Source: Hyphomicrobiales bacterium (GTDB taxonomy: Bacteria > Pseudomonadota > Alphaproteobacteria > Rhizobiales > Xanthobacteraceae). Taken from it: a stretch of 64,000 bases of DNA. The notes beneath the pieces were generated by a model. It saw nothing but the letters and a program-made list of their open reading frames with translations. It searched no databases and had not been told where the DNA came from. Where the stretch lies: positions 1 through 64,000 of the forward strand of contig JAFKKG010000012.1 of the NCBI GenBank assembly GCA_017305715.1. The letters are read 5' to 3'. Shown one piece after another: positions 8,616 through 22,827 of this stretch. Every line of letters starts with the position of its first letter. Position 1 is the first letter of the stretch. The translations under genes and the position numbers were made by a program.

Positions 8616-9500
8616 ATGGCCTATAGCGAAGACCATATCGCGCTCGCTGCGGAATACGCGCTCGGCACCCTCGATGCCGACGAGCGTTCGCAGGTCGAGA
8701 CCATGATGGCCGTCGACACCGAATTCACCGCTATGGTCCACGCGTGGGAATACCGGCTCGGCGTCCTCAACCAGATGGTGGGATCGGTCGAGCCGCGTCC
8801 GATCGTGTGGGAGAACATTCAGCGTGCGATCGGCCATGCCGGCCCGCAGGAGCCGCTGACGCTGCCGGAAGCGGCGCAGCCGGTGCCGCCCGTGACCGCG
8901 GAGCCGGCTCACGTCGAGGACATCCACTGGCCCGAGGACAATCCGAACGTCGTCCACTTGTCTGCAAGGGTGAAGCGCTGGCGCAATGTGGCGTCGTTTG
9001 CCACGGCGGCCGCCGCCGCGCTGATCGCAATGTTGGCGATGCAGGTGTATTCGCCGGATCTGTTGCCGAACGCCCTTCGTCCGAAGGTCCGCACCCAGGT
9101 GGTCGAAGTCAAGTCGCCGCCCATTCCGGCGCCGCCATCGGCGCAATATGTCGCGATCCTGCAGGGCGCCGGCGGCGCGCCGGCGTTCATCCTGACGGTC
9201 GATGCCGCGACCAAGAATTTCACGGTCCGCAAGGTCGGCGCCGAAGCCGAAGCCGGCAAGAGTTTCGAACTCTGGCTGATTTCCGACAAGCTGCCGCAGC
9301 CGCGCTCGCTCGGCGTGATCGGCGGCGGCGACTTCACCGCGCGTCCGGTGCTTTCGTCCTACGATGCCGCCACGATCAACGCCGCCACCTACGCGGTGAC
9401 GGTCGAGCAGGCCGGCGGATCGCCCGACGGCAAGCCGCACTCGGCGCCGGTGTTTTCAGGCAAGCTGATCGAGACCGTGCCCGCCGCGCCGCCGCGCTGA
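8616..9500 (+). CDS. Membrane anti-sigma factor, RskA family
   Basis: 294 residues. The N-terminal cytosolic part (EYALGTLDADER at about 13-24) binds the sigma factor. A single transmembrane segment lies at about 125-145 (FATAAAAALIAMLAMQVY). The C-terminal extracytoplasmic RskA domain has KSFELWLISDKLPQPRSLG followed by a GGGDF segment, the hallmark of anti-sigma-K proteins. The zinc HxxxCxxC motif of ZAS proteins is absent. It should hold the upstream sigma factor inactive until regulated proteolysis. Cotranscribed with it. Confidence 0.9.
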   Translation: MAYSEDHIALAAEYALGTLDADERSQVETMMAVDTEFTAMVHAWEYRLGVLNQMVGSVEPRPIVWENIQRAIGHAGPQEPLTLPEAAQPVPPVTAEPAHVEDIHWPEDNPNVVHLSARVKRWRNVASFATAAAAALIAMLAMQVYSPDLLPNALRPKVRTQVVEVKSPPIPAPPSAQYVAILQGAGGAPAFILTVDAATKNFTVRKVGAEAEAGKSFELWLISDKLPQPRSLGVIGGGDFTARPVLSSYDAATINAATYAVTVEQAGGSPDGKPHSAPVFSGKLIETVPAAPPR

Positions 9501-12554: not shown

Positions 12555-13110
12555 CGCGCCCGTGTCATACCCGCGCATGCGGGTATCCAGGACGCCGCGG
12601 CTTTTCGGGTCTTTCATCGGCCCCGCTACGCCAAGGCTTCTACGCCAGGGCTTCCCATGCTGGCACGCCGGAGCTTTAGCGCAGGCGGCAAGCCGGCGAT
12701 GGCACCCAAACACACCGCCGCGATCCCGCGGCGCGATGCGCCCGGGTGGTCGATGCCGTTTCTCCCCGAAACAAGGGAGCAGGGAATGCCGGATGCGCGC
12801 TGCACCCGCGATCTCATGTGCAATGTGCACAAGGAAGTGCGCACATGAGCATACAGGGCAGCGGAGAACATCCGACATTCCCTGCGCAATGGCTTTACGG
12901 CTTATAACGTGCTCTCCCCGGAGAACGGCTCTTTTGCCTCCGTTGCGCCCTGGGAAGTCGAACGCCTCCAGGTGCATGGACGCCAGCAACGCGGCGTCAG
13001 GACCACACGACTTCGCCGTACGCTCGCGCGCCGTTCGTCTTCGGCGCTACCGGCGTCCACCGCATCCCACCCCACGTCCGTGACGATCGCGATACGCCCC
13101 TCGTGAAGGG
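12555..13110. repeat. Long intergenic repeat module (Bradyrhizobium-type)
   Basis: From about 12555 (GTGTCATACCCGCGCATGCG, itself a small palindrome) to about 13110 the sequence has no credible gene in any frame. I recognise it as a segment dispersed between genes in Bradyrhizobium and related genomes, including the stretches GGGAGCAGGGAATGCCGGAT, ATGAGCATACAGGGCAGCGG and CTCCCCGGAGAACGGCTCTT. Short open frames here on both strands look like chance products of the repeat. Copy number cannot be checked from this window. Confidence 0.55.
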
Positions 13111-13398: not shown

Positions 13399-13490
13399 TC
13401 GTCATGGCCGGGCTTGTCCCGGCCATCCACGTCTTTCTTGCCTGGTGGAAGCCAAGACGTGGATGCCCGGCACAAGGCCGGGCATGACGA
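13399..13490. repeat. Large imperfect inverted repeat (REP/palindromic element)
   Basis: Two arms of about 37 bases (13399-13435 and 13454-13490) begin TCGTCATG and end CATGACGA. They are complementary except for about four G/C exchanges and are separated by 18 bases. This CGTCATGGCCGGGCTTGTCC type of palindrome is common between genes of Bradyrhizobium. The rest of 13110-13620 holds no convincing gene. Confidence 0.75.
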
Positions 13491-14249: not shown

Positions 14250-14438
14250 ATGAACCCGACCAACAACAAAGCCGACGAACTGAAGCTCGACGAACTCGAC
14301 AAGGCGTCCGGTGGCGCTTTTCACATTTCGTGGAGTGCAGGCTCCCGCTGCATCGACATCGGCTTCGGCAGCACCGGCATCTGGTTCGGTGCCGCTGGTG
14401 CCGGCTGGTATTCGGGCGACAAGTCGGGCCGTCTGTGA
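14250..14438 (+). CDS. Small peptide with double-glycine leader (GG peptide 1)
   Basis: 62 residues from ATG 14250, preceded by GGAGAAGACGAGG. The acidic leader MNPTNNKADELKLDELDKAS ends in GG (residues 21-22) and fits L-x3-E-L-x4-GG, the bacteriocin/microcin-type double-glycine signal. The predicted 40-residue product is rich in Gly, Ala, Ser and Trp with one Cys (WSAGSRCIDIGFGSTGIWFG). No modification enzyme, immunity gene or C39 peptidase transporter is adjacent. A strong terminator follows immediately, so it is a one-gene transcript. Function unknown. Three further peptides with the same leader pattern lie within 8.6 kb. Confidence 0.75.
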   Translation: MNPTNNKADELKLDELDKASGGAFHISWSAGSRCIDIGFGSTGIWFGAAGAGWYSGDKSGRL

Positions 14439-14456
14439 TTTCAGCGACCCGCGTGA

Positions 14457-14484
14457 AGAGGCCGCCTCGGTCGGCGGCCTCTTT
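14457..14484 (+). terminator. Rho-independent terminator after GG peptide 1
   Basis: A 10-bp stem (14457-14466 with 14473-14482, AGAGGCCGCC/GGCGGCCTCT) with a 6-base loop, followed by TTTGCTT. It is 19 bases after the stop. Confidence 0.85.
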
Positions 14485-14505
14485 GCTTCAGGCTCATCCG
14501 AGCAT

Positions 14506-14521
14506 AGTGACCCGCGTCACA
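14506..14521. promoter_or_regulatory. GTGA-N6-TCAC palindrome (Crp/Fnr-like site) upstream of the membrane protein gene
   Basis: AGTGA-CCCGCG-TCACA at 14506-14521, 46 bases before the start at 14568. It is one of five such sites in this area. Confidence 0.5.
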
Positions 14522-14567
14522 GTGATGGCGTCACGTGTCCGGCATGTTCGGTGCAAAGGAGACGGCG

Positions 14568-14930
14568 ATGACATATCTCGAAGCCCAGCAGCGACCCCTT
14601 GCCGCGGACAGGATCCTCGCGGTCGCGATCTACCTGCTTTACTGCGTGGGTTACTTCACCGGCGTCTCGGCGCTGATTGGCGTCATCATCGCACACGTCA
14701 AGGCCGGTGATGCCGACCCGGTGATGCGGTCGCATTTCCAGTTTCAGATCAGGACTTTCTGGATCGGGCTGCTTTACATGGTGATCGGCGTTTTGCTTTG
14801 CGTCCTTCTGATCGGCTTCCTGGTTCTGGCCTGGTGGTTCGTGTGGTCGCTGGTCCGCATCGTCAAAGGCATTCTGTTGGCCAGTGAGAACAGGCCGATC
14901 GCCAATCCCCAGTCCTGGCTGTTCGGATAA
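14568..14930 (+). CDS. Small membrane protein, DUF4870-like
   Basis: 120 residues from ATG 14568 with an AAGGAGA ribosome-binding site. Three hydrophobic segments: about 13-46, 63-87 and 84-100 (LLYMVIGVLLCVLLIGFLVLAWWFVWSLVRI). The pattern of a short N-terminus, YLLYCVGYFTG, HFQFQIRTFWIG and a final VRIVKG segment with RPI resembles the DUF4870/Tic20-like membrane proteins. Function unknown. It is preceded by a GTGA-N6-TCAC palindrome. Confidence 0.65.
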   Translation: MTYLEAQQRPLAADRILAVAIYLLYCVGYFTGVSALIGVIIAHVKAGDADPVMRSHFQFQIRTFWIGLLYMVIGVLLCVLLIGFLVLAWWFVWSLVRIVKGILLASENRPIANPQSWLFG

Positions 14931-15040
14931 TCACGCCATTCACGATCCGCCATTTGTTTTTCGATCGGAGTGGAAACGCGCTGTCGCTTATCTGCCCCAC
15001 GTACCGTTACCGCCGCATCTAAGCCCGGTTGAATCCCGCC

Positions 15041-15217
15041 ATGTCAAAGGCAATCATTGCATTCATTGGAGCTGCGGTCGGTGCGCTGCTCATTTATTTT
15101 GGCCTGAATTTCCACATCGGGTCATGGTGGCTCAGTGGAGCAGCCGCTTATGTCCCCGCCGCCATTGCCGGCGCAGTTACGGCGCTTCTGATCCGCACCC
15201 TGCTTTCGCATCGTTAA
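15041..15217 (+). CDS. Small two-helix membrane protein, hypothetical
   Basis: 58 residues from ATG 15041 (MSKAIIAFIGAAVGALLIYF). A TTG four codons earlier is possible. Two transmembrane helices: about 4-22, and 35-52 (AAYVPAAIAGAVTALLIRTL). No recognised family and no close partner. The gap to the membrane-protein gene upstream is 110 bases. Confidence 0.55.
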   Translation: MSKAIIAFIGAAVGALLIYFGLNFHIGSWWLSGAAAYVPAAIAGAVTALLIRTLLSHR

Positions 15218-15351
15218 CCGCAACGGGATACATTTCACGTTCCGTACTTGTCGCTATCCTGCGCGCCGGAACTCCGTCGTCATATTGAAAACCTGATTTT
15301 TTGCACGAACCTGTATTGAAATACGAAACCCGAATTTGGAGCGCGTTATTC

Positions 15352-15681
15352 ATGCTCAAGCCTGCCATCCTGTTTCTGATGATCTCCGCCTCGATTTGCT
15401 CGGTTTCCGCGCAGGAGGCCCGCTCCGTACAGATGTTCGGGATTGGATTGAAAACGTGCAGTTATTGGCGGGCCACCAAGGCCAACATCGCCGAAGGGCA
15501 GATCTGGATCTACGGCTTCTGGAGCGCCCTCAATCTCGCCATCGAGGGACACCGCGTCGGGGAAGGCATCGATGGCCTGGACATCGTTGCTGCGGTCAAG
15601 AAGACGTGCGACGCGCGCCCGTCGACAACGCTGTACCAGGCGGCGGCCGCGACCTTCGAGGAAATGGCTGGCAAGCAATAG
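15352..15681 (+). CDS. Secreted small Cys-pair protein (Rap1a/HdeA-like fold, tentative)
   Basis: 109 residues from ATG 15352. A signal peptide (MLKPAILFLMISASICSVSA, cleavage after SVSA) leads a mature domain with cysteines in LKTCSYW and KKTCDAR spaced about 50 residues apart, and a central QIWIYGFWSALNLA. A secreted domain of about 85 residues with one disulfide and a GFWSxLN motif is typical of HdeA/Rap1-type periplasmic proteins. I assign the fold only tentatively. No operon partner. Confidence 0.6.
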   Translation: MLKPAILFLMISASICSVSAQEARSVQMFGIGLKTCSYWRATKANIAEGQIWIYGFWSALNLAIEGHRVGEGIDGLDIVAAVKKTCDARPSTTLYQAAAATFEEMAGKQ

Positions 15682-15784
15682 GCGGGTCAATCGGTGTTGC
15701 GGCCGAGGGGCTGCCACACGCTCCAGCGCAAGCCGCCCTTGCTCCGCAAGGCCCGGCCAGATGCCGGCGCAAAAGAACGGCGCA

Positions 15785-15817
15785 AATGAAAAGGTGTGCC
15801 GGGATACCCGACACACC
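15785..15817 (-). terminator. Terminator of the Gly/Arg-rich protein gene
   Basis: An 11-base stem with one mismatch (15793-15803 with 15807-15817, GGTGTG..CGGG/CCCG..CACACC), followed on the minus strand by TTTTCATTT. It lies 48 bases after the stop of the Gly/Arg-rich gene. Confidence 0.7.
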
Positions 15818-15864
15818 TGATCTTCGTTCCGATCCGGCGTCGATGACGCCGGTCGTGCAGGCTC

Positions 15865-16227
15865 TCAATAGCTGCAGACGCGCTCGTCGTCTTCGTTCCA
15901 CCAGCAGCTCGGGGCGACATAGCCGTAGCCATAGCCGCGACCCCAGCCGCGACCGCGACCCCAGCCACGACCACGGCCCCAGCCACGACCACGGCCACCA
16001 CCGCGCCCACGGCCGCCGCCACGGAATCCGCCGCCGCGACCGCGACCGCCGCCACGACCGCGACCGCCGCCACGACCGCCGCCACGGCCACCGCCGCCGC
16101 GTCCGCCACGGGCAAACGCCGAACTGGTGGTTGCGCCCACCAGCATGGCAGACGTACTGAAGACATAGACAAACATCAAAGCGAGTGCTGCCAGGCAGCG
16201 GGTCAGGATAGTATAGCGTTTTTTCAT
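15865..16227 (-). CDS. Secreted Gly/Arg-rich repeat protein
   Basis: 120 residues from ATG 16227 (MKKRYTILTRCLAALALMFV). A signal peptide of about 40 residues ending near SSAFA is followed by about 55 residues made almost only of Gly and Arg (GGGRGGGRGGGRGRGGG and then repeated GRGRGW), then a short end with GYGYGYVAPSCWWNEDDERVCSY. The mature protein would be very basic, with one possible C-terminal disulfide. The DNA is a tandem repeat (about 15935-16110). I recall similar proteins annotated as hypothetical in Bradyrhizobium. Nucleic-acid or polyanion binding at the surface is only a guess. Confidence 0.65.
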   Translation of the reverse strand: MKKRYTILTRCLAALALMFVYVFSTSAMLVGATTSSAFARGGRGGGGRGGGRGGGRGRGGGRGRGGGFRGGGRGRGGGRGRGWGRGRGWGRGRGWGRGYGYGYVAPSCWWNEDDERVCSY

Positions 16228-16451
16228 TCCAGGATCTCCGGGACTAAATTTCTCCCGGCGCGCCAATCGCTCCGGCGAGGTGATCGATCATCGCAAACTC
16301 AAAGCGAACGATATGTGCGCGCGCTCACACTGAACCGGGGGGCCGTGAGCTTTCCATGAGGTGCCCACATCAGGTGTCGTTGCGGAGCTGCTAAGCGGAT
16401 TGAGCCCAAGGGACGAAGCATCGCGACGCGAGGACTGCCTGCCTTGCGCCG

Positions 16452-16664
16452 TTACTTCGGCGCGGGCGACGGCGGCGGCACAGGAACGGGCTCCTGCTTG
16501 CGCTTCCGCACGATGATGGCGTCGCCTTGCTCGGCAATGCCGATGTTGCGGACCATCGGCGGGTTCGGCGCCTGGGCAGGCTCAGTTACGGGCGCGGGTG
16601 GGTTCGTCTCGGCGCTGGCGCTGCCGATCGAAAGAAGAAGTGCGATGACAAGCCGCTTGTTCAT
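16452..16664 (-). CDS. Small secreted Pro-rich protein, hypothetical
   Basis: 70 residues. A signal peptide (MNKRLVIALLLSIGSASAET) leads a short mature chain with Pro-rich ends (PPAPVTEPAQAPNPP and VPVPPPSPAPK) around MVRNIGIAEQGDAIIVRKR. No cysteines. It is divergent from the two-helix membrane gene at 16806, with an 18-bp palindrome almost exactly midway. No known family. Confidence 0.6.
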   Translation of the reverse strand: MNKRLVIALLLSIGSASAETNPPAPVTEPAQAPNPPMVRNIGIAEQGDAIIVRKRKQEPVPVPPPSPAPK

Positions 16665-16725
16665 GGGTGTCCCCTTCGATGTGAGGGGGCACCATACGGC
16701 GCCGGACGGGTGGTGCTGTGATGCC

Positions 16726-16743
16726 GGTCACAGTAGGCGATAC
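16726..16743. promoter_or_regulatory. Perfect CTGTGA-N6-TCACAG palindrome between divergent small genes
   Basis: 16726-16743, a perfect Crp-type box (TGTGA-N6-TCACA plus one more pair). The centre is about 70 bases from the start at 16664 (minus) and from the start at 16806 (plus), a natural position for control of both. Confidence 0.6.
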
Positions 16744-16805
16744 GGCCCCTGCGCATGTTCGGTCCGGATCAACGGTCGGCAACCCATCAGCCATGAAAGC
16801 TTTCG

Positions 16806-16994
16806 ATGTCATTGAACCAATTCAAGCGGCTGGGTGGCCTTCCCGAAGCGTTTTTGGCCGTGGTGCTGGGCGTTGCCGTTTGGAGCTTTTACGGCTTTCC
16901 CTACGTCACGGAAGTTGCGCTCGGATGCGTCGCGCTCGGCGGCATCGGCGCATTGATCTTGAGGTGGAAGAAATCGTTGGATCAGGCGGATTAG
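16806..16994 (+). CDS. Small two-helix membrane protein, hypothetical
   Basis: 62 residues from ATG 16806 (MSLNQFKRLGGLPEAFLAVV). Two hydrophobic helices: about 14-28 and 34-53 (VTEVALGCVALGGIGALIL), ending in a charged RWKKSLDQAD tail. No recognised family. Shares its promoter region with the divergent secreted Pro-rich protein. Confidence 0.55.
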   Translation: MSLNQFKRLGGLPEAFLAVVLGVAVWSFYGFPYVTEVALGCVALGGIGALILRWKKSLDQAD

Positions 16995-17009
16995 CCGAAG
17001 CCGGGCGGA

Positions 17010-17198
17010 TCAAGCCGCCACGGATTGCGCTTCCGGCCTGACGGAAACCACGCCGGCGCGCCTGACATTCAAGATCTGCCATTTCGAGGTATCGAAATAA
17101 TCGGCGGCCTTGGTCTCCGCGGCTGCGGCATCGGGTGCCTGAATGGCGGTGTGGAATTTCCGTGCACCGTCACTCATCGTAACTCTGAAAACCTGCAT
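17010..17198 (-). CDS. Small conserved hypothetical protein
   Basis: 62 residues from the ATG at 17198 (MQVFRVTMSDGARKFHTAIQ), chosen because GGAGGG lies 7 bases before it. An ATG at 17213 would add five residues. Predicted alpha/beta with an Ala-rich helix (APDAAAAETKAADYF) and KWQILNVRRAGVVSV. The layout of a strand, helix and strand suggests a small soluble domain. Family not recognised. Confidence 0.55.
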   Translation of the reverse strand: MQVFRVTMSDGARKFHTAIQAPDAAAAETKAADYFDTSKWQILNVRRAGVVSVRPEAQSVAA

Positions 17199-17383
17199 TC
17201 CCGTGCCCTCCATTTTTCCGAAGGGTGGAACGGGCAGGGTTAATTTTTCGTTACCGGGGTTCACGGGGGGCGGTGCCTCGTTGCAGCGCGGGACAAGAAG
17301 GACGCCGGCAGCCCCCCGCGACAGAACAACGCGCGGCGAGCTGCCGGATATGCCGGCGCTCACGCCGGCAGCAAGAATGGCAG

Positions 17384-17563
17384 ATGGGACTGCCGATCTG
17401 CCCAAGCTGCGACGTCGAGCGTACGCTGATCGAGATCGAGCCAGCGCGCCGGGACTATGTCATCAGGACATTTCAATGTCCCAATTGCCGCGGTGTTTTG
17501 AAGGTGGTCGGCAAGATTGACGATTATACCGACCTGATCGATCGGCCGAAAAAGCCTTCCTGA
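17384..17563 (+). CDS. Small zinc-ribbon protein
   Basis: 59 residues from ATG 17384 (MGLPICPSCDVERTLIEIEP). Two CPxC knuckles, CPSC (6-9) and CPNC (about 32-35), form a four-cysteine zinc ribbon around a beta hairpin, followed by a short acidic and basic tail (DDYTDLIDRPKKPS). The protein is cytosolic. Such ribbons act in nucleic-acid or protein contacts. The partner is unknown. Confidence 0.6.
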   Translation: MGLPICPSCDVERTLIEIEPARRDYVIRTFQCPNCRGVLKVVGKIDDYTDLIDRPKKPS

Positions 17564-17593
17564 AGGGGGGCATCGGCGGCATCGTCACCTGTC

Positions 17594-17670
17594 TAAAGCG
17601 CGATGAGATTAAGTTTAACCGTCATCGCGCTTTAGCTCCTTGTATGAGCATGATCTTTTCGGAAAACCGC
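17594..17670. repeat. REP-like element with perfect 13-bp inverted repeat
   Basis: TAAAGCGCGATGA (17594-17606) and its exact complement (17622-17634) are separated by 15 bases and followed by GAGCATGATCTTTTCGGAAA (from about 17646). I know this combination as a dispersed intergenic element in Bradyrhizobium and other Rhizobiales. Confidence 0.7.
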
Positions 17671-17769
17671 TCCCCCCGTCATGATGCCGTACAAGGGCAT
17701 GCCAGCGGCAATCGAAATGGCCGCGACAATCGCGGCGATGATCGCAGGTTTTGGCAGGGCGGTGTCCAT
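17632..17769 (-). CDS. Tiny single-helix membrane protein (tentative)
   Basis: 45 codons from ATG 17769: MDTALPKPAIIAAIVAAISI, then AAGMPLYGIM, TGGAV and a basic end RKDHAHTRS. One clear transmembrane helix at about 9-30. The last 12 codons and the stop lie inside the REP-like element, so the repeat supplies the C-terminus. The ribosome-binding site is weak. Composition favours a real protein, but this could be chance. Confidence 0.35.
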   Translation of the reverse strand: MDTALPKPAIIAAIVAAISIAAGMPLYGIMTGGAVFRKDHAHTRS

Positions 17770-17924
17770 GCACGTCAACGGCCGCCAACCCGCCGGGTTT
17801 CCCGTCCCGAGGCGCCATCCGCAGCCTTAATAGGGGCTCCGATCCTACCAACCGTACACTTGTGAACACCGGATATGAGTGCTCTCATCCGGTCAGCCGT
17901 CCATTGGGAAGTCAGCCGGATATC

Positions 17925-18593
17925 ATGGGTTTCTTCGAGCGATTAAAGGCAGCGGCCTCATCCGAGTGGCGCGCCTATACCGAACATCCCTTCACCAACG
18001 CGCTGGCTGACGGTTCGCTTCCCGAAGCGGCGTTTCGTCACTATCTCGTTCAGGACTACCTGTTCCTGATCGAGTTTGCCCGCGCCTACGCGCTTGCGGT
18101 CTACAAGTCGCCCTCGCTCGCCGACATGCGCGAGGCGGCGGCGGGCCTTTCGGCCATTCTCGATGTCGAAATGGACCTGCACATCAAGCTCTGCGACGGC
18201 TGGGGGCTCTCGGCCGATGATCTCGAACGCGCCCCGCCGGCGGTCGAAATGCTGGCCTATACGCGCTATGTGCTCGATGCCGGCATGCGCGGCGACCTGC
18301 TGTCGCTCAAGGTGGCGCTGGCGCCTTGCGTGATCGGCTACGCCGAGATCGCGGGCCGGCTCGCCGCGCACCCCAATGCGCTGCTCGCAACGAACCCCTA
18401 TCGCGTCTGGATCGGCGAATATGCCGGGGCGCCCTATCAGGAGGTCGCGGCGAAGGCGCAAGCGCATCTGGAAGCGCTCGCCGACCGCTACGCGACGCCG
18501 GCCCGCGAGGCAGAGCTGATCGCGGTCTTCCGGGAAGCCACCAGGCTGGAAGCCGATTTTTGGGAAATGGGCTGGCGCGTCGGCAAGCGTTGA
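17925..18593 (+). CDS. tenA: Thiaminase II / aminopyrimidine aminohydrolase TenA
   Basis: 222 residues from ATG 17925 (MGFFERLKAAASSEWRAYTE). An all-helical TenA/HOP fold with HPF near the N-terminus, FRHYLVQDYLFLIEFARAYA, catalytic Cys 135 in LAPCVIGYAEI and the acidic C-terminal LEADFWEMGW. It hydrolyses aminomethylpyrimidine derivatives to HMP in thiamine salvage. No thiamine biosynthesis or transport gene is nearby, so it appears to be a stand-alone salvage gene. Confidence 0.9.
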   Translation: MGFFERLKAAASSEWRAYTEHPFTNALADGSLPEAAFRHYLVQDYLFLIEFARAYALAVYKSPSLADMREAAAGLSAILDVEMDLHIKLCDGWGLSADDLERAPPAVEMLAYTRYVLDAGMRGDLLSLKVALAPCVIGYAEIAGRLAAHPNALLATNPYRVWIGEYAGAPYQEVAAKAQAHLEALADRYATPAREAELIAVFREATRLEADFWEMGWRVGKR

Positions 18594-18645
18594 GGGAACG
18601 CTGGCACTGTCCTTCGATCCGGCCGCCGGTGAAGCAGGTCCATTG

Positions 18646-18661
18646 TGTGACCGGGATCACG
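18646..18661. promoter_or_regulatory. GTGA-N6-TCAC palindrome upstream of GG peptide 2
   Basis: TGTGA-CCGGGA-TCACG at 18646-18661, about 90 bases before the start at 18752. Confidence 0.5.
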
Positions 18662-18751
18662 GCGGCTGCCGGCATTCCCCACGATCATGCCTGCATCGAC
18701 GGCGGCCAGCGCCGGACCGCCCGGAACGGGATCAACAAGGGGATTAGCAAG

Positions 18752-18937
18752 ATGAACAAGATCGTGCACGAACTGGCGGACGGCGAACTCGACCGCGTTT
18801 GCGGCGGAGGCTGCGAACTGTCCATGATCCAACTGCAATCGGTGGTCTCCCAGCGGCAGATGGTCATCCAGATGATCGGCAACCTGTTCCAGGCCATGCG
18901 CCAGACCAACAGCGCGGTGATCAAGAATATCAGGTAA
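18752..18937 (+). CDS. Small peptide with double-glycine leader (GG peptide 2)
   Basis: 61 residues from ATG 18752, preceded by AAGGGG. The leader MNKIVHELADGELDRVCGG fits L-x3-E-L-x4-GG, with GG at 18-19. The predicted 42-residue remainder begins GCELSMIQLQSVVSQRQMV and is an amphipathic helix rich in Gln, Met, Ile and Val (QMIGNLFQAMRQTNSAVIKN), quite unlike the Gly-rich product of GG peptide 1. It has cysteines at the leader end and at residue 21. A Crp-like palindrome lies upstream. No transporter or maturation gene is adjacent. Confidence 0.7.
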   Translation: MNKIVHELADGELDRVCGGGCELSMIQLQSVVSQRQMVIQMIGNLFQAMRQTNSAVIKNIR

Positions 18938-19011
18938 CCCCGGCGTCGAGCCGCGGGACGAGATGCGTTGATCGGGCCGCGCCGGATGTGGCCCGTTTCG
19001 TCTCCCCCGCC

Positions 19012-19986
19012 TCAGGCGGCGGCGCGCCGCTTGCCGGTTTCATCGAGCAGACCTGCGGCCACCAGCGCCTCAAGAATGCACGCGATCTCCGCATCCCCGA
19101 TCTTGACCAGCGGCGGCCGCACCACCGCGCGCGGCAGGCGGCCGAGAAGAACCAGCGCCTCCTTCATGCGGTTGTGCATGTCGACGAAGGGATCGGCGTA
19201 GAACACGCTCATCAACGGATGGATACGATCGTTCAGCCGCCGCGCCTCGGCGAGGTCGTTGGCGATGACCGCGCGGAACAGCCGGGCCTGCAGATCCGAT
19301 ATCACGCTGCCGCTTCCCGACAGCAAGCCGTTGCAGCCGAGCACCAGCGAGCTCAGCAGCCAGGCGCTGTTGGTCGACAGCACGTTGACCGGCGGCTTTC
19401 GCGATTGCAGCAGCCGCACATGCGACTCGTGCTGCGGCACGCTTTGCGACCAGTCCTTGATGGCGCGGATGGTTGGGATTTCGTCGAGCAGGCGGGTCAG
19501 CGTCGCCGCGGGATAACCTTGTCCGGTCGCGAGCGGATACTGGAAAACGATCAGCGGCAGATCGGAGGCCGCGGCAATCGCCTTGAAGTGCGCGAGCGCC
19601 ATGTCCGCGCTCTGGCCGAGCGTGAAGGGCGCCGGCGGAAACACCAGCAGCGCCGACGCGCCGCCGGCCTGCGCGCGCCTTGCGATCCGCGCCGCCTCGA
19701 GGCTGCCGTCGGCCCAGATGCCATGGATCAGCGGCAGCCGGTCGCCGATCTCGTCGCCGGCGATGTCGAGCACGCGGCTCTGCTCGTCGGCGGTGCAGGA
19801 CGCCACCTCGGTCGAATGCGCATTGATCGTCACCGCCGCCAGTCCCTCGACAGCGGCGACGTCGCGCAGATGGCTGCGGAAGCTGGGTTCGTCGATGGAA
19901 AAATCGTCGTGGAACGGCAGCAATACGGCGGGGATCACCCCCTGCGGAACGAAGTCCTTGAAGCGAGCCTCCTTGAAGTGAGCCAT
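19012..19986 (-). CDS. Dihydrodipicolinate synthase/N-acetylneuraminate lyase family aldolase
   Basis: 324 residues, a TIM-barrel class I aldolase of the DapA family. The Schiff-base lysine is K177 in TIRAIKDWS, with Y150 in VFQYP. GLLSGSGSVISD follows at the expected later position. The usual GTTGE loop is replaced by NAHSTE, so it is not a true DapA and the substrate is likely another 2-keto acid. It is a single gene with no sugar or lysine genes around, and converges on GG peptide 2. Confidence 0.8.
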   Translation of the reverse strand: MAHFKEARFKDFVPQGVIPAVLLPFHDDFSIDEPSFRSHLRDVAAVEGLAAVTINAHSTEVASCTADEQSRVLDIAGDEIGDRLPLIHGIWADGSLEAARIARRAQAGGASALLVFPPAPFTLGQSADMALAHFKAIAAASDLPLIVFQYPLATGQGYPAATLTRLLDEIPTIRAIKDWSQSVPQHESHVRLLQSRKPPVNVLSTNSAWLLSSLVLGCNGLLSGSGSVISDLQARLFRAVIANDLAEARRLNDRIHPLMSVFYADPFVDMHNRMKEALVLLGRLPRAVVRPPLVKIGDAEIACILEALVAAGLLDETGKRRAAA

Positions 19987-20160
19987 GACGATCTCCCGCC
20001 GGTTCTGATTGTTTCGCCCTGACTATCACAGCCGCAAGATGCGAGCCAGCCGGCAGCGGCGGGCAGCGCCATGCGCCGAAGGAAGGAGCGCGGCCGGCAC
20101 GCGAACATTGTCGCGAACCGGACAATCAACGCGAAGGCGGGACCGCCGATGCAAGCGGCG

Positions 20161-20340
20161 TCACTTCACGTACCAGTAGGTACCGGAGCATGTGGAGGTC
20201 GCCCAGATCACCAGCACCTGGCCGCCGAACGGGATGCTCACTTCCATCCGCGGCGGGCCATGGTTGCAGACACGGCCGCCCGCGATCGCATCGAGTTCGG
20301 ATTCGCCGAGCGGCTTCGTTTCCATTTGCGTGCGGTCCAT
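20161..20340 (-). CDS. Small peptide with double-glycine leader (GG peptide 3)
   Basis: 59 residues from ATG 20340, chosen because AAGGAGAG lies 5 bases upstream. An ATG at 20358 would start inside that site. The leader MDRTQMETKPLGESELDAIA plus GG (21-22) matches L-x3-E-L-x2-I-x-GG, the closest of the four to class II bacteriocin leaders. The 37-residue product begins RVCNHGPPRMEVSIPFGG and ends in a Thr/Ser/Trp/Tyr segment with a second Cys (CSGTYWYVK), so a disulfide is possible. An 8-3-8 palindrome lies 22 bases upstream. Confidence 0.75.
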   Translation of the reverse strand: MDRTQMETKPLGESELDAIAGGRVCNHGPPRMEVSIPFGGQVLVIWATSTCSGTYWYVK

Positions 20341-20361
20341 GCGCTCTCTCCTTGTCATGAA

Positions 20362-20380
20362 ACGAAGTGATCCACTTCGT
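20362..20380 (-). promoter_or_regulatory. 8-3-8 palindrome in the leader of GG peptide 3
   Basis: ACGAAGTG-ATC-CACTTCGT, perfect arms, ending 22 bases before the start codon. It could be an operator or an mRNA hairpin next to the ribosome-binding site. Confidence 0.45.
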
Positions 20381-20670
20381 CGGAGCGAGCAGGCTAGGTT
20401 CGCATCGGCAACGTACCGTGAGGAAGATCATAGTCCGGAAATTCGCAACCGTCCTGTCGCGCGCTGATCGCGGGGGGCGAAAACGCGAAAGCCCGGCGCA
20501 AACGGCCGGGCCCTCGTGAAATATGCTTTGGTGATGAAAGCCGACATTCAATATGTAATGCCAATGCGATTAACTTATTCCTTCGATGGCGCGATGGGGA
20601 CTCCGTATGAATGCGGAGCGCGCGCCGGTGCGCATGCGGGCGCACAAAGGTGCGCATCGCAGGTGGGGCA

Positions 20671-20696
20671 TGAAGAAGCCGGCGGGTCACGCCGGC
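20671..20696 (-). terminator. Terminator of the SMP-30 gene
   Basis: A 7-bp stem (20678-20684 with 20690-20696, GCCGGCG/CGCCGGC) with a 5-base loop and TTCTTCA following on the minus strand, 30 bases after the stop. Confidence 0.65.
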
Positions 20697-20725
20697 GTCT
20701 CCTTTGCCGTTGCGGTGACGAACAG

Positions 20726-21961
20726 TCAGCCCGGGCCGGCGCCTTGCGTTGCCGTATAGACGGCATAGAGCGACTGGCTCGCGGCCATGAACAGCCGGTT
20801 GCGCTTCGGCCCGCCGAAACAGATGTTGCCACACACTTCGGGCAGCCGGATCCGCCCGATCAGCTTGCCGTCCGGGTTCCATACCGTGACGCCATTATAG
20901 CCGACGGCGCGGCCGGCATTGCTCGACGCCCAGACATTGCCGTTGACGTCGCAGCGCACGCCGTCCGGTCCGCATTTGACGCCATCGATCATGAAGTCGG
21001 AAAAGCGCTTGCCGTTCGAGAGCTTGTTGTCGGCGCCGACGTCGAACACGAACATGTCGCCCTTGCCGCCGGGCCCGGTATCGCCGGGCCCCTTGCCGGT
21101 GCTGGCGACGTACAGCTTCTTGTAGTCGGGCGAGAAACACAGCCCGTTGGGATCGGGAACCTGTTCCTCGGTCACCACGAGGTCGATGCGGCCCGAGGGG
21201 TCGATGCGATAGCAATTGGTCGGCAGTTCGCGCTTGCCCGGCACGAAGCCGGCAGGCTGGCCGATCCGCGGATTGAGCTTGCCGGCCGGGTTGCTGGCGC
21301 CGCCCGCCACATCCGGCTCGCCCTCATAGAGCTGGCCGCCATAGGGCGGGTCGGTGAACCAGTAGCTGCCATCCGGATGGGCGACGACATCATTGGGTGA
21401 ATTGAGTTTCTTGCCGCCGAAATTGTCGGCCAGCACGGTGGCGGTGCCGTCGTGCTCGTAGCGCACCACCCGGCGGGCGAGATGCTCGCAGGAGAGCTGC
21501 CGGCCCTGGAAGTCGAAGGAGTTGCCGTTGGAATTGTTGGACGGCGTGCGGAACACGGTGACGCGGCCGTCGTCTTCCAGCCACCGCATCTGCCGGTTGT
21601 TGGGAATGTCGCTCCACAGGAGATAGCGGCCCTGCGCGCTCCAGGCCGGGCCTTCGGCCCACAGCAGGCCGGTGGCGAGGCGCTTGATCGCGGTGTTGGG
21701 CTGGGCGATGTCGTTGAACGACGGATCGACCGCGATGATGTCGGGATCCCAGAAATAGGTGGTCGGTGCACCGCGCGGGCCGAAATCGCGCGGCGGGGTG
21801 GTGATGACGGAGGGGGGCCCCAATGGGGCGGCCGGTTGGGCCTGCTGGGCCAGCGCGCCGGTCACCCCGGCCGCGGTGGCGCCGGCGGCGGCCGCGAGGC
21901 CCCCGACGAGCGTTCGCCGTGAAATCATGGAATCCGGATCGCGCCGCACTTCGCGTGTCAT
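20726..21961 (-). CDS. Tat-exported SMP-30/gluconolactonase-like protein
   Basis: 411 residues from ATG 21961 with GGGAGGAT upstream. The twin-arginine signal SRRTLVGG (about 14-21) plus an Ala-rich helix and ALAQQA cleavage region point to periplasmic export. The six-bladed propeller of the SMP-30/LRE family shows in LLWAEGPAWS, YLLWSDIPNN, LNSPNDVVAHPDGSYWFTDP and LCFSPDYKKLYVA, with the acidic and Asn metal ligands typical of Ca/Zn lactonases. Likely hydrolyses a sugar lactone or related ester. It has its own terminator and no sugar genes next to it. Confidence 0.88.
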   Translation of the reverse strand: MTREVRRDPDSMISRRTLVGGLAAAAGATAAGVTGALAQQAQPAAPLGPPSVITTPPRDFGPRGAPTTYFWDPDIIAVDPSFNDIAQPNTAIKRLATGLLWAEGPAWSAQGRYLLWSDIPNNRQMRWLEDDGRVTVFRTPSNNSNGNSFDFQGRQLSCEHLARRVVRYEHDGTATVLADNFGGKKLNSPNDVVAHPDGSYWFTDPPYGGQLYEGEPDVAGGASNPAGKLNPRIGQPAGFVPGKRELPTNCYRIDPSGRIDLVVTEEQVPDPNGLCFSPDYKKLYVASTGKGPGDTGPGGKGDMFVFDVGADNKLSNGKRFSDFMIDGVKCGPDGVRCDVNGNVWASSNAGRAVGYNGVTVWNPDGKLIGRIRLPEVCGNICFGGPKRNRLFMAASQSLYAVYTATQGAGPG

Positions 21962-22132
21962 TGCATCCTCCCGATTGATCTGCGCCGGCCGGTTGATCCG
22001 GCCATGCGGGGGTGAGGCTAATCCGTTCGGGAGCCGGTTGCGAGAGGCAAAGCGCACAATGCGAGATGGCATTGCTTCGGCAAATTCATGTTCATCAAAA
22101 GGCAGGGCCGTGATGGGCGCGCGCCCGCGGAT

Positions 22133-22405
22133 TCACTGGGCCGGTTGGTTAGCCGCGCGGTAGCGCTTCCAGTTTTCGATGGTGGCTTCGTAGCGCACCG
22201 GTTTTTTGCCAACGGGGACCGGCTCCGGCTTGACGGACGCCAGGCCGGCGGGCTGACGCTGTCCCGCATGGATCACATGCGCCGCCTGCATCGGATAAAA
22301 CGCGGCGAGGCCGAGCAGGCCCGCAATCACCAACCCGAACGGGATCGCGATGGCCCAATCATGATGCGTACGCCCGGTGACGTCATGGCGCAGGACTTTT
22401 GGCAC
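22133..22405 (-). CDS. Small single-span membrane protein, hypothetical
   Basis: 90 residues from a GTG at 22405 with GGGAG 7 bases upstream. An N-terminal cytosolic stretch (PKVLRHDVTGRTHHDW) leads one transmembrane helix (about 18-39, AIAIPFGLVIAGLLGLAAFYP). The extracytoplasmic part is Pro/Lys-rich and ends in a basic NWKRYRAANQPAQ. No family recognised. A GTGA-N6-TCAC palindrome lies 53 bases upstream of the start. Confidence 0.6.
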   Translation of the reverse strand: MPKVLRHDVTGRTHHDWAIAIPFGLVIAGLLGLAAFYPMQAAHVIHAGQRQPAGLASVKPEPVPVGKKPVRYEATIENWKRYRAANQPAQ

Positions 22406-22457
22406 GGTTCGCTCCCACGTTGGATTGGCATTTGTAGGTCGAGACGCGCGGCGGCAT

Positions 22458-22473
22458 CGTGAGCTGGATCACT
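22458..22473. promoter_or_regulatory. GTGA-N6-TCAC palindrome between divergent small genes (site A)
   Basis: CGTGA-GCTGGA-TCACT at 22458-22473, 53 bases upstream of the GTG start at 22405 on the minus strand. Confidence 0.45.
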
Positions 22474-22556
22474 ATTGACGCTCACTAATCCGTCAGCCGC
22501 GGTCGAACGAGGCGCCAGGCCCTGCGCGCTGTCTGAACGATCCGTGCTTTCAAAAA

Positions 22557-22572
22557 AGTGATTTGGATCACG
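22557..22572. promoter_or_regulatory. GTGA-N6-TCAC palindrome upstream of GG peptide 4 (site B)
   Basis: AGTGA-TTTGGA-TCACG at 22557-22572, about 73 bases before the start at 22645. It shares the half GGATCAC with site A. Confidence 0.5.
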
Positions 22573-22644
22573 GAACTGCGTTTGTCGGTGCCGCACCGTG
22601 AGTGCGGCATTGGGCCGAAGATTCTTTCAACCAGGAGATTAGAC

Positions 22645-22827
22645 ATGACCACCAAACTGATCGATCAGAGCAAAGTTGGCGCCGGCTTCCTTTCGGATGA
22701 AGCGCTGGCTCTCGTCGCCGGCGGCCTCAATCCGCAGCCGCTGCCGCCGAAAGAAGCTTTCAGCATTCGATCGCTGTTTAGCGTTTCCGTGGCGCGTTTT
22801 TCGGTTGCACGCTTTTTCTTTCGTTGA
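22645..22827 (+). CDS. Small peptide with double-glycine leader (GG peptide 4)
   Basis: 60 residues from ATG 22645 with CCAGGAGA upstream. The leader MTTKLIDQSKVGAGFLSDEA is followed by LALVAGG, so GG is at 26-27, fitting L-x3-[EA]-L-x2-V-x-GG. The 33-residue product begins LNPQPLPPKE, a motif I have seen after GG in other Bradyrhizobium small proteins, and ends with repeated SVARFSVARFFFR, hydrophobic and basic. No cysteines. A Crp-like palindrome lies upstream and no processing gene is adjacent. Confidence 0.75.
   Translation: MTTKLIDQSKVGAGFLSDEALALVAGGLNPQPLPPKEAFSIRSLFSVSVARFSVARFFFR

Follow-up and report, generated by a model that had tools for sequence, protein, structure and literature searches.

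Class II bacteriocins are normally linked to their exporter and to immunity genes, prochlorosin-type precursors have Nif11-type leaders and are served by one promiscuous modifying enzyme, and a screen of Gram-negative bacteria for double-glycine leaders is reportedly that of Dirix et al. in 2004. Among the closest described systems are the NHLP and Nif11 precursors, which use a three-gene exporter and may lie far from it (Haft, Basu and Mitchell 2010, PMC2887384). Leader-first screens of Gram-negatives gave the consensus M(R/K)ELX3E(I/L)X2(I/V)XG(G/A) (cited in PMC3140520), the leader code has already been published (PMC6363468, PMC7018657), and so has bacteriocin activity of Bradyrhizobium, the genes of strain FN1 being proposed by genome mining only (PMC4520892). 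Here, we describe four short genes, P1 to P4, in a 64,000-nucleotide stretch of a Hyphomicrobiales genome (GenBank assembly GCA_017305715.1, contig JAFKKG010000012.1, positions 1 to 64,000; our C36:1-64000, hereafter the window). The genome, G000, comprises 7.45 Mb in 51 contigs, and its genus was read as Bradyrhizobium because the closest named relatives of one window protein, at 92-93% identity, belong there. We read P1 to P4 as probable members of a set that spans the genome, comprising about 30 small genes, most of them stand-alone, whose exported products share a leader ending in Gly-Gly (GG).

With the NHLP/Nif11 system the set shares the exporter (TIGR03794, TIGR03796 and TIGR03797), leaders that end in Gly-Gly and give a similar logo, precursors at a distance and hypervariable cores (PMC2887384), and the genome itself contains one true NHLP. 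It differs in that the window leaders, of 19-27 residues, pass none of the NHLP and Nif11 models, no modification enzyme was recognised alongside, the candidates number about 30 per genome, and a subset carries a 5' hairpin. Leader length, the positions L-12, E-8, L-7, -4 and GG, and a predicted C39 exporter are common to class II bacteriocins and microcins (TIGR01847; PMC9746304, PMC7018657), whereas the window genes lie far from the exporter, have no recognised immunity gene and fall under the TIGR01847 cut-off. The double-glycine screens used the same leader-first idea and reached a close consensus (PMC3140520), but that paper concerns cyanobacteria, with Bradyrhizobium only as a tree outgroup. 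Prochlorosin-type precursors are likewise many per genome, sometimes unlinked and diverse in their cores (PMC10783134), whereas the leaders here are short and a LanC-like protein was not found. The GG-motif proteins of Synechococcus elongatus are likewise small GG-leader proteins of a Gram-negative, with a role other than killing, but they are four biofilm proteins, compared with about 30 with unrelated cores here (PMC4997328). Leader and exporter are of known kinds, and unlinked precursors have been published; no description of a set on this scale or of the hairpin was found among the open-access papers listed, as judged by titles and the first lines of abstracts.

The original prediction of four reading frames with one aligned leader was borne out by the frames themselves and by an alignment of the leader ends over 19 columns without gaps, in which L8, L13, G18 and G19 are invariant in all four (Table 1). 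Each has Leu at -12 and -7, a hydrophobic residue at -4 (Ala in P1) and Gly-Gly. The pattern L-x3-E-L-x2-[VIAT]-x-GG occurs three times in the window, always within the region holding the four genes, against 0.02 expected, and three or more matches were seen in none of 100 dinucleotide shuffles; P4 has A in place of E and hence stands outside the strict pattern. A hidden Markov model (HMM) of the leader, trained on sequences that included P1 to P4, picked out P1 to P4 and no other frame of the window at a cut of 14 bits, used throughout unless stated otherwise, and its column-permuted and reversed versions gave no match there. The start of P3 was taken at MDRTQ, which aligns with relatives; a further in-frame ATG lies upstream. 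Chance origin of the leader was rejected on the shuffles and the HMM controls. It is extremely improbable that the shared leader is a coincidence or a cytosolic motif unrelated to export, as the hairpin matches, the co-occurrence with an exporter and the exporter linkage in relatives, all described below, also speak against it.

Table 1. Positions of the window features and model scores of the exporter genes
Feature	Position	Strand	Details
P1, GG-leader peptide	14250..14438	+	62 residues, core 40; leader 14250-14315, core 14316-14435
P1 hairpin, ribosome-binding site and start codon	14207..14252	+	GGGA-AUGG-UCCC; training sequence of model R1, R1 E 5.4e-6
P2, GG-leader peptide	18752..18937	+	61 residues, core 42; leader 18752-18808
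P3, GG-leader peptide	20161..20340	-	59 residues, core 37; leader 20275-20340, core 20164-20274
P3 hairpin	20361..20381	-	nine pairs, GACGAAGTG-GAT-CACTTCGTT; same position, other loop; no R1 match
P4, GG-leader peptide	22645..22827	+	60 residues, core 33; leader 22645-22725, core starts LNPQPLPP
Stretch absent from L071, L072 and L074	22580..22766 (approximate ends)		P4 start, leader and first part of core; BLAST gap and alignment
HlyD fusion protein	contig C40		TIGR03794, 292.6 bits, cut-off 156.2
Peptidase-ABC	contig C40		TIGR03796, 1060.2 bits, cut-off 853.3
Second ABC	contig C40		TIGR03797, 860.9 bits, cut-off 709.4

Further short open reading frames (ORFs) with the leader, which the original prediction had suggested looking for, proved abundant. 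A profile made from P1 to P4 alone had 20 matches in the genome at E ≤ 10, which sorted by eye into P1 to P4, 14 other short GG-leader ORFs and two false matches, namely, a frame that runs antisense to a gene for an RND-type pump, and an AraC-like protein (both named by eye). Later additions came from second and third profile rounds, a hairpin model and the exporter locus, bringing the set from four to 30 candidate genes on 13 contigs (four each on C36, C35, C25 and C1, two each on C41, C18, C44, C12 and C40, and one each on C17, C27, C31 and C38). Thirty is a best estimate, in which the weak members were accepted for their leader, short frame and ribosome-binding site. The genes are single or in islets, with four in 8.6 kb in the window, three in ~3 kb on C25 and three in ~1.6 kb on C1. 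In the 25 short-leader members that were measured, with start codons picked by script, leaders are 15-40 and cores 19-50 residues long; 17 of the 30 cores lack Cys and eight contain two. In 1.74 Mb of sequence, the true leader HMM had 25 matches (four from the window, 12 from own stretches picked around known matches and nine from 80 loci of relatives), and the permuted and reversed models had none. One of seven other short own peptides scanned passed TIGR01847, at 15.9 against a cut-off of 15.7, and a plasmid search with two of the peptides gave no match.

The four window products had been called unrelated to each other, but this fails as a genome-wide rule, and the premise that all cores are unrelated was dropped. 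Clustered by BLASTP at E < 1e-3, the 30 own cores form 26 clusters, with three pairs and one dispersed core joined to the exporter-linked peptide of C40, whereas the 129 peptides of all genomes form 60 clusters, 35 of them single. Of the 26 own clusters, 15 have a paralogue or are related to another peptide of the sample; for P1 and 10 further own cores, no relative came up among the 129 peptides at this cut.

The original prediction of no exporter or maturation genes holds inside the window but not for the genome, which has an exporter on C40 and a YcaO gene on C35. The exporter accounts for the only C39 domain in the whole genome (E ≤ 0.001); a second C39 exporter was ruled out, one match having been obtained among the four candidates scored. 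The transporter and fusion partner predicted for the genome are thus present, encoded with a second ABC protein by three overlapping genes. With all three above their model cut-offs and adjacent or overlapping, the cassette is of the NHLP type instead of the classical class II bacteriocin or microcin type that had been expected. The peptidase residues Q40, C46, H119 and D135 are spaced 6/73/16, within one residue of LahT, in which they are Gln21, Cys27, His101 and Asp117 (PMC6363468). A GG-leader peptide, scoring 11.0 bits and thus under the usual 14, starts 128 bp beyond the end of the second ABC gene; its core is related (BLASTP) to a dispersed core on C35, and it has counterparts on the same strand and at the same distance in G184, G278, G393 and G209, ~2.9-3.0 kb beyond the peptidase-ABC match. 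The C40 peptide lies beside an exporter as in a class II operon, whereas P1 to P4 do not.

A C39 protease needs no more of the leader than its last 13 residues, and cleavage of leaders of the NHLP type has been described (PMC6363468). In the mechanism proposed here, the last 13 residues of each short leader would form a short helix, with Leu-12, Leu-7, a mostly hydrophobic -4 and the Gly-Gly end, which the C39 domain of the C40 exporter would bind before cutting after Gly-Gly; the pump and a presumed outer-membrane partner would then release the core. Because only the leader would be needed for recognition, the cores would be free to differ and the genes could be placed anywhere.

The claim that dispersed secreted peptides share one export route is supported by the C39 exporter, by the further leader ORFs and by co-occurrence in the genus. 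Among 242 genus genomes, 52 have both exporter and peptides, 11 the exporter only, eight peptides only and 171 neither, so that the leader is found in 52 of 63 exporter genomes versus eight of 179 without (Fisher p 3e-33). The cuts were E ≤ 0.01 for the leader profile (60 genomes), which contains sequences of several counted genomes, and E ≤ 1e-240 for the exporter model (63 genomes, 62 of them above its cut-off). Among 198 family genomes, with profile A3 made from own sequences and the exporter counted above its cut-off, the leader is found in six of 15 exporter genomes versus three of 183 others (p 5e-6); G000 is counted in both tallies. Leader matches per positive genus genome run from one to at least 35, and at least six genomes have 20 or more; as at most 37 candidates were scored per genome, the highest counts are lower bounds.

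Peptides were also seen next to the exporter in relatives, whose exporter regions were read at 9 bits. In the eight regions first read, there were eight candidates in 20 kb in G194, five in G056, one each in G184 and G046 and a doubtful one in G012; none was seen beside the G163 and G073 exporters or the second exporter of G056. Regions read later held one peptide each in G278, G393 and G209 and two in G321. The exporter-linked core of G046 starts LNPQPLPP, like P4, and nothing was found on NPQPLPP in the open-access literature. Note also that the G056 exporter is flanked by two near-identical GG-leader gene pairs (L152:999-1529 and 8909-9403), and that contig G387:C4 carries four leader matches of near-equal scores at widely separated places, which suggests duplication and spread.

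Several observations weigh against a common exported set. The Fisher p values are too strong, overstating independence, because the genomes of one genus are kin. In 11 of the 63 exporter genomes the leader profile matched nothing at E ≤ 0.01, and it did match in eight of the 179 exporter-free genomes; six of these eight have a single match, but G283 (87% complete, ~1020 contigs) has 20 and G292 (67% complete) has four. Three of the eight exporter regions first read lack a peptide, and a fourth has only the doubtful one. The leader models were refined with their own earlier matches. No P1 to P4 protein lies above any curated family cut-off: they are not listed for TIGR01847 (bacteriocin signal) or TIGR03793 (NHLP precursor), and they pass no Nif11 model. 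No immunity or maturation partner recurred among 28 own loci (1.5 kb on each side), known immunity families not being included in the search. What the sequences show directly is the gene set, the leader, the exporter with its triad residues, co-occurrence, linkage in relatives, selection on the P3 core and, as a sequence feature, the hairpin; helix, cleavage, secretion and role are inferred.

On a subset of the genes, a hairpin begins 46 to 32 nt 5' of the start codon, with a variable stem and a similar loop (for example, GGCGGGA-AUGG-UCCUGCC, GAAGGA-UGA-UCCUUC and CGCGA-UGG-UCGCG). With a loop definition chosen after the data were seen, stems of at least five pairs occur before 22 of 76 discovery peptides versus three of 206 long ORFs, two of 76 positions further upstream and 1.1 of 76 mononucleotide shuffles; they occur in 14 of 49 later loci, several of which are orthologues or repeats of the first set. 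The hairpin is thus common to about a quarter to a third of the peptides only. In 13 sequences picked for having it, some of them orthologues, 86.8% of the stem is paired and four of seven pairs are changed on both sides, while slid structures reach at most 56%. Against a general hairpin, 26 of 500 shuffles also gave four pairs changed on both sides, though none of 500 reached the covariation score.

A covariance model of the hairpin and ribosome-binding site, R1, was run on the whole genome, where 150 of 1804 first-look candidates were scored, giving 36 matches at E ≤ 10 among those 150. A GG-leader gene immediately follows each of the seven best (E ≤ 7.5e-4). Six of the seven are training sequences, and the other, C1:174055 (E 3.9e-7), precedes a gene missed by the leader profiles, its G194 orthologue having been in the training set. 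The next 23 matches were read (E 0.16-6.9), six weaker ones remaining outside: two precede GG-leader genes (C44:144633 and C38:34552, neither with a training orthologue and both also leader-profile matches), one an AAG variant and 20 other sequence. The AAG variant, at C41:165467 (L179), is an ORF outside the 30 whose leader ends in QLEIVAAG, and it may be a variant precursor or one in decay. Across 40 loci that were selected in four other genomes by their leader alone, R1 had 17 matches at E ≤ 1 and nine at E ≤ 1.4e-5, some of them orthologues of training sequences; in 304 kb of own sequence poor in other peptide genes, P1 alone came below E 0.02. A search of the window stretch and of seven loci gave no Rfam family that matches the hairpin.

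Two tests came out modest, and the hairpin is therefore claimed for a subset only. Only a moderate signal came from a loop-free folding test, with a mean z of -1.04 for 120 peptides compared with -0.74 further upstream of the same genes (p 0.04), -0.19 for 206 long ORFs and -0.43 for the 46 long ORFs that have a ribosome-binding site (p 0.007), and a scan of 484 kb of own sequence for the hairpin, site and start pattern gave 12 matches, four before GG genes. The position of the hairpin just 5' of the ribosome-binding site suggests shared post-transcriptional or translational control of the subset.

The window genes differ in their histories. P3 has orthologues in three loci of relatives (L071, L072 and L074) with 35-36 of 37 core residues identical. 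Its 37 core codons show 9-10 synonymous and 1-2 nonsynonymous changed codons, and the 22 leader codons 1-2 synonymous and 9-10 nonsynonymous; because core changes are mostly synonymous and leader changes mostly nonsynonymous, the core is the selected part, and by these codon counts it is under purifying selection. The original prediction had held that conservation of the core but not of the leader would speak against it, and the P3 core is indeed kept while the leader has diverged. However, the leader retains L-12, E-8, L-7, I-4 and GG in these relatives, and since the positions read by a C39 protease (L-12, L-7, the hydrophobic -4 and GG) are among them, we did not count P3 as a refutation. 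The same three loci have a P2 homologue, on the opposite side of a dapA-like gene, and a third GG peptide beside P3, in a different arrangement; the loci fetched from these relatives (17-21 kb each) showed neither P1 nor P4.

All three loci lack ~0.19 kb at the front of P4, and the end of the P4 core aligns with DNA of theirs that holds no such gene. Judging from the alignment, the gap is an insertion here or a deletion in the relatives, and P4 looks young. Such a gene, like the 11 cores with no relative at the cut used, might be expected if many of the dispersed genes were decaying or accidental remnants of former exporter-linked clusters, but this is very unlikely, given the purifying selection on P3, the relatives or paralogues of 15 of the 26 own core clusters, and the strong ribosome-binding sites, GGAG preceding 59 of the 76 peptides read in all genomes, compared with 26 of the 210 long ORFs, whose starts were uncurated. 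A bolder proposal, which we make tentatively and hold to be rather unlikely in full, is a genome-wide regulon of about 30 unlinked exported peptides. A common leader and a single exporter would unite it, and some members would share a new cis-acting RNA hairpin ~40 nt ahead of the start codon. Its 5' cassette of hairpin, ribosome-binding site and leader could become attached to fresh coding sequence, of which P4 may be a case.

The leader might also recruit a modification enzyme, the peptides then being precursors of ribosomally synthesized and post-translationally modified peptides (RiPPs) with modified mature products. Exporters of this family are associated with modified peptides of the NHLP and Nif11 kinds (PMC2887384), and P3 has a weak match to TIGR04149, a radical-SAM-modified RiPP family, at 11.7 bits against a cut-off of 25. 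The genome also holds a true NHLP precursor, one of the 30 (TIGR03793, 75.6 bits, cut-off 50.9), followed by JmjC_2, TfuA and YcaO genes at L219:9520-13861 (G000:C35:280520-284861); this is a probable thioamide or azole RiPP cluster and may use the C40 exporter. Nevertheless, modification of the set is unlikely: the single YcaO found in the genome, ~3 kb from the NHLP, belongs with that long-leader precursor, the absence of a LanC-like protein from the genome led us to reject a LanM-type maturase, and more than half of the cores lack Cys. No modification enzyme was recognised beside the window genes, radical SAM maturases not being part of that search. As the sole YcaO sits with the NHLP and there is no LanC-like protein, our guess is that most of the set would be exported unmodified apart from leader removal; the eight two-Cys cores perhaps carry a disulphide.

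If the peptides are exported, their most likely role is competition between bacteria. It is nonetheless possible, though we do not favour it, that they serve as signals, biofilm or surface components, or effectors directed at plants or fungi. No recurrent candidate for an immunity partner was seen at the own loci, the P3 core is almost invariant between relatives, which is unusual in an arms race, and small GG-motif proteins are secreted in biofilm control of S. elongatus (PMC4997328). However, the diversity of the cores fits membrane-active bacteriocins better, to which some glycine-zipper and amphipathic cores (by eye) are also suited, and Bradyrhizobium japonicum FN1 inhibits other bradyrhizobia, from a cause that its authors did not identify (PMC4520892).

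Among the 30 pairs listed out of 33, what recurred next to the own loci was repeat DNA, paralogous peptide genes read in other frames, and a single SDR-like protein (named by eye). A gene for a DUF4870 protein is next after P1, and a 133-residue ORF with long glycine/arginine repeats lies at 15865-16266 on the minus strand of the window. Window positions 12718-13110 are repeat DNA that recurs at ~80-97% identity in six of 22 own stretches; as most of these stretches had been selected for their GG-leader genes or the exporter, the count does not speak for enrichment of the repeat there. Positions 13400-13489 match Rfam mir-5882 on both strands at 38.8 of 95 bits, below the gathering score, and are most likely a palindromic repeat and not a microRNA.

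Nearly all of these genes would escape searches for bacteriocins or RiPPs that begin at an exporter or a maturase; those confined to exporter neighbourhoods would miss them because the pump is probably encoded far away. If the peptides are exported, one alphaproteobacterial pump handles about 30 of them, with about 26 kinds of core, and they offer a direct handle on what soil Bradyrhizobium releases to its surroundings. A shared hairpin would make the dispersed genes of such a secretome findable from their 5' side and testable as a regulon, and cassette joining, if true, would give the cell a natural means of making secreted molecules out of new peptide cores.

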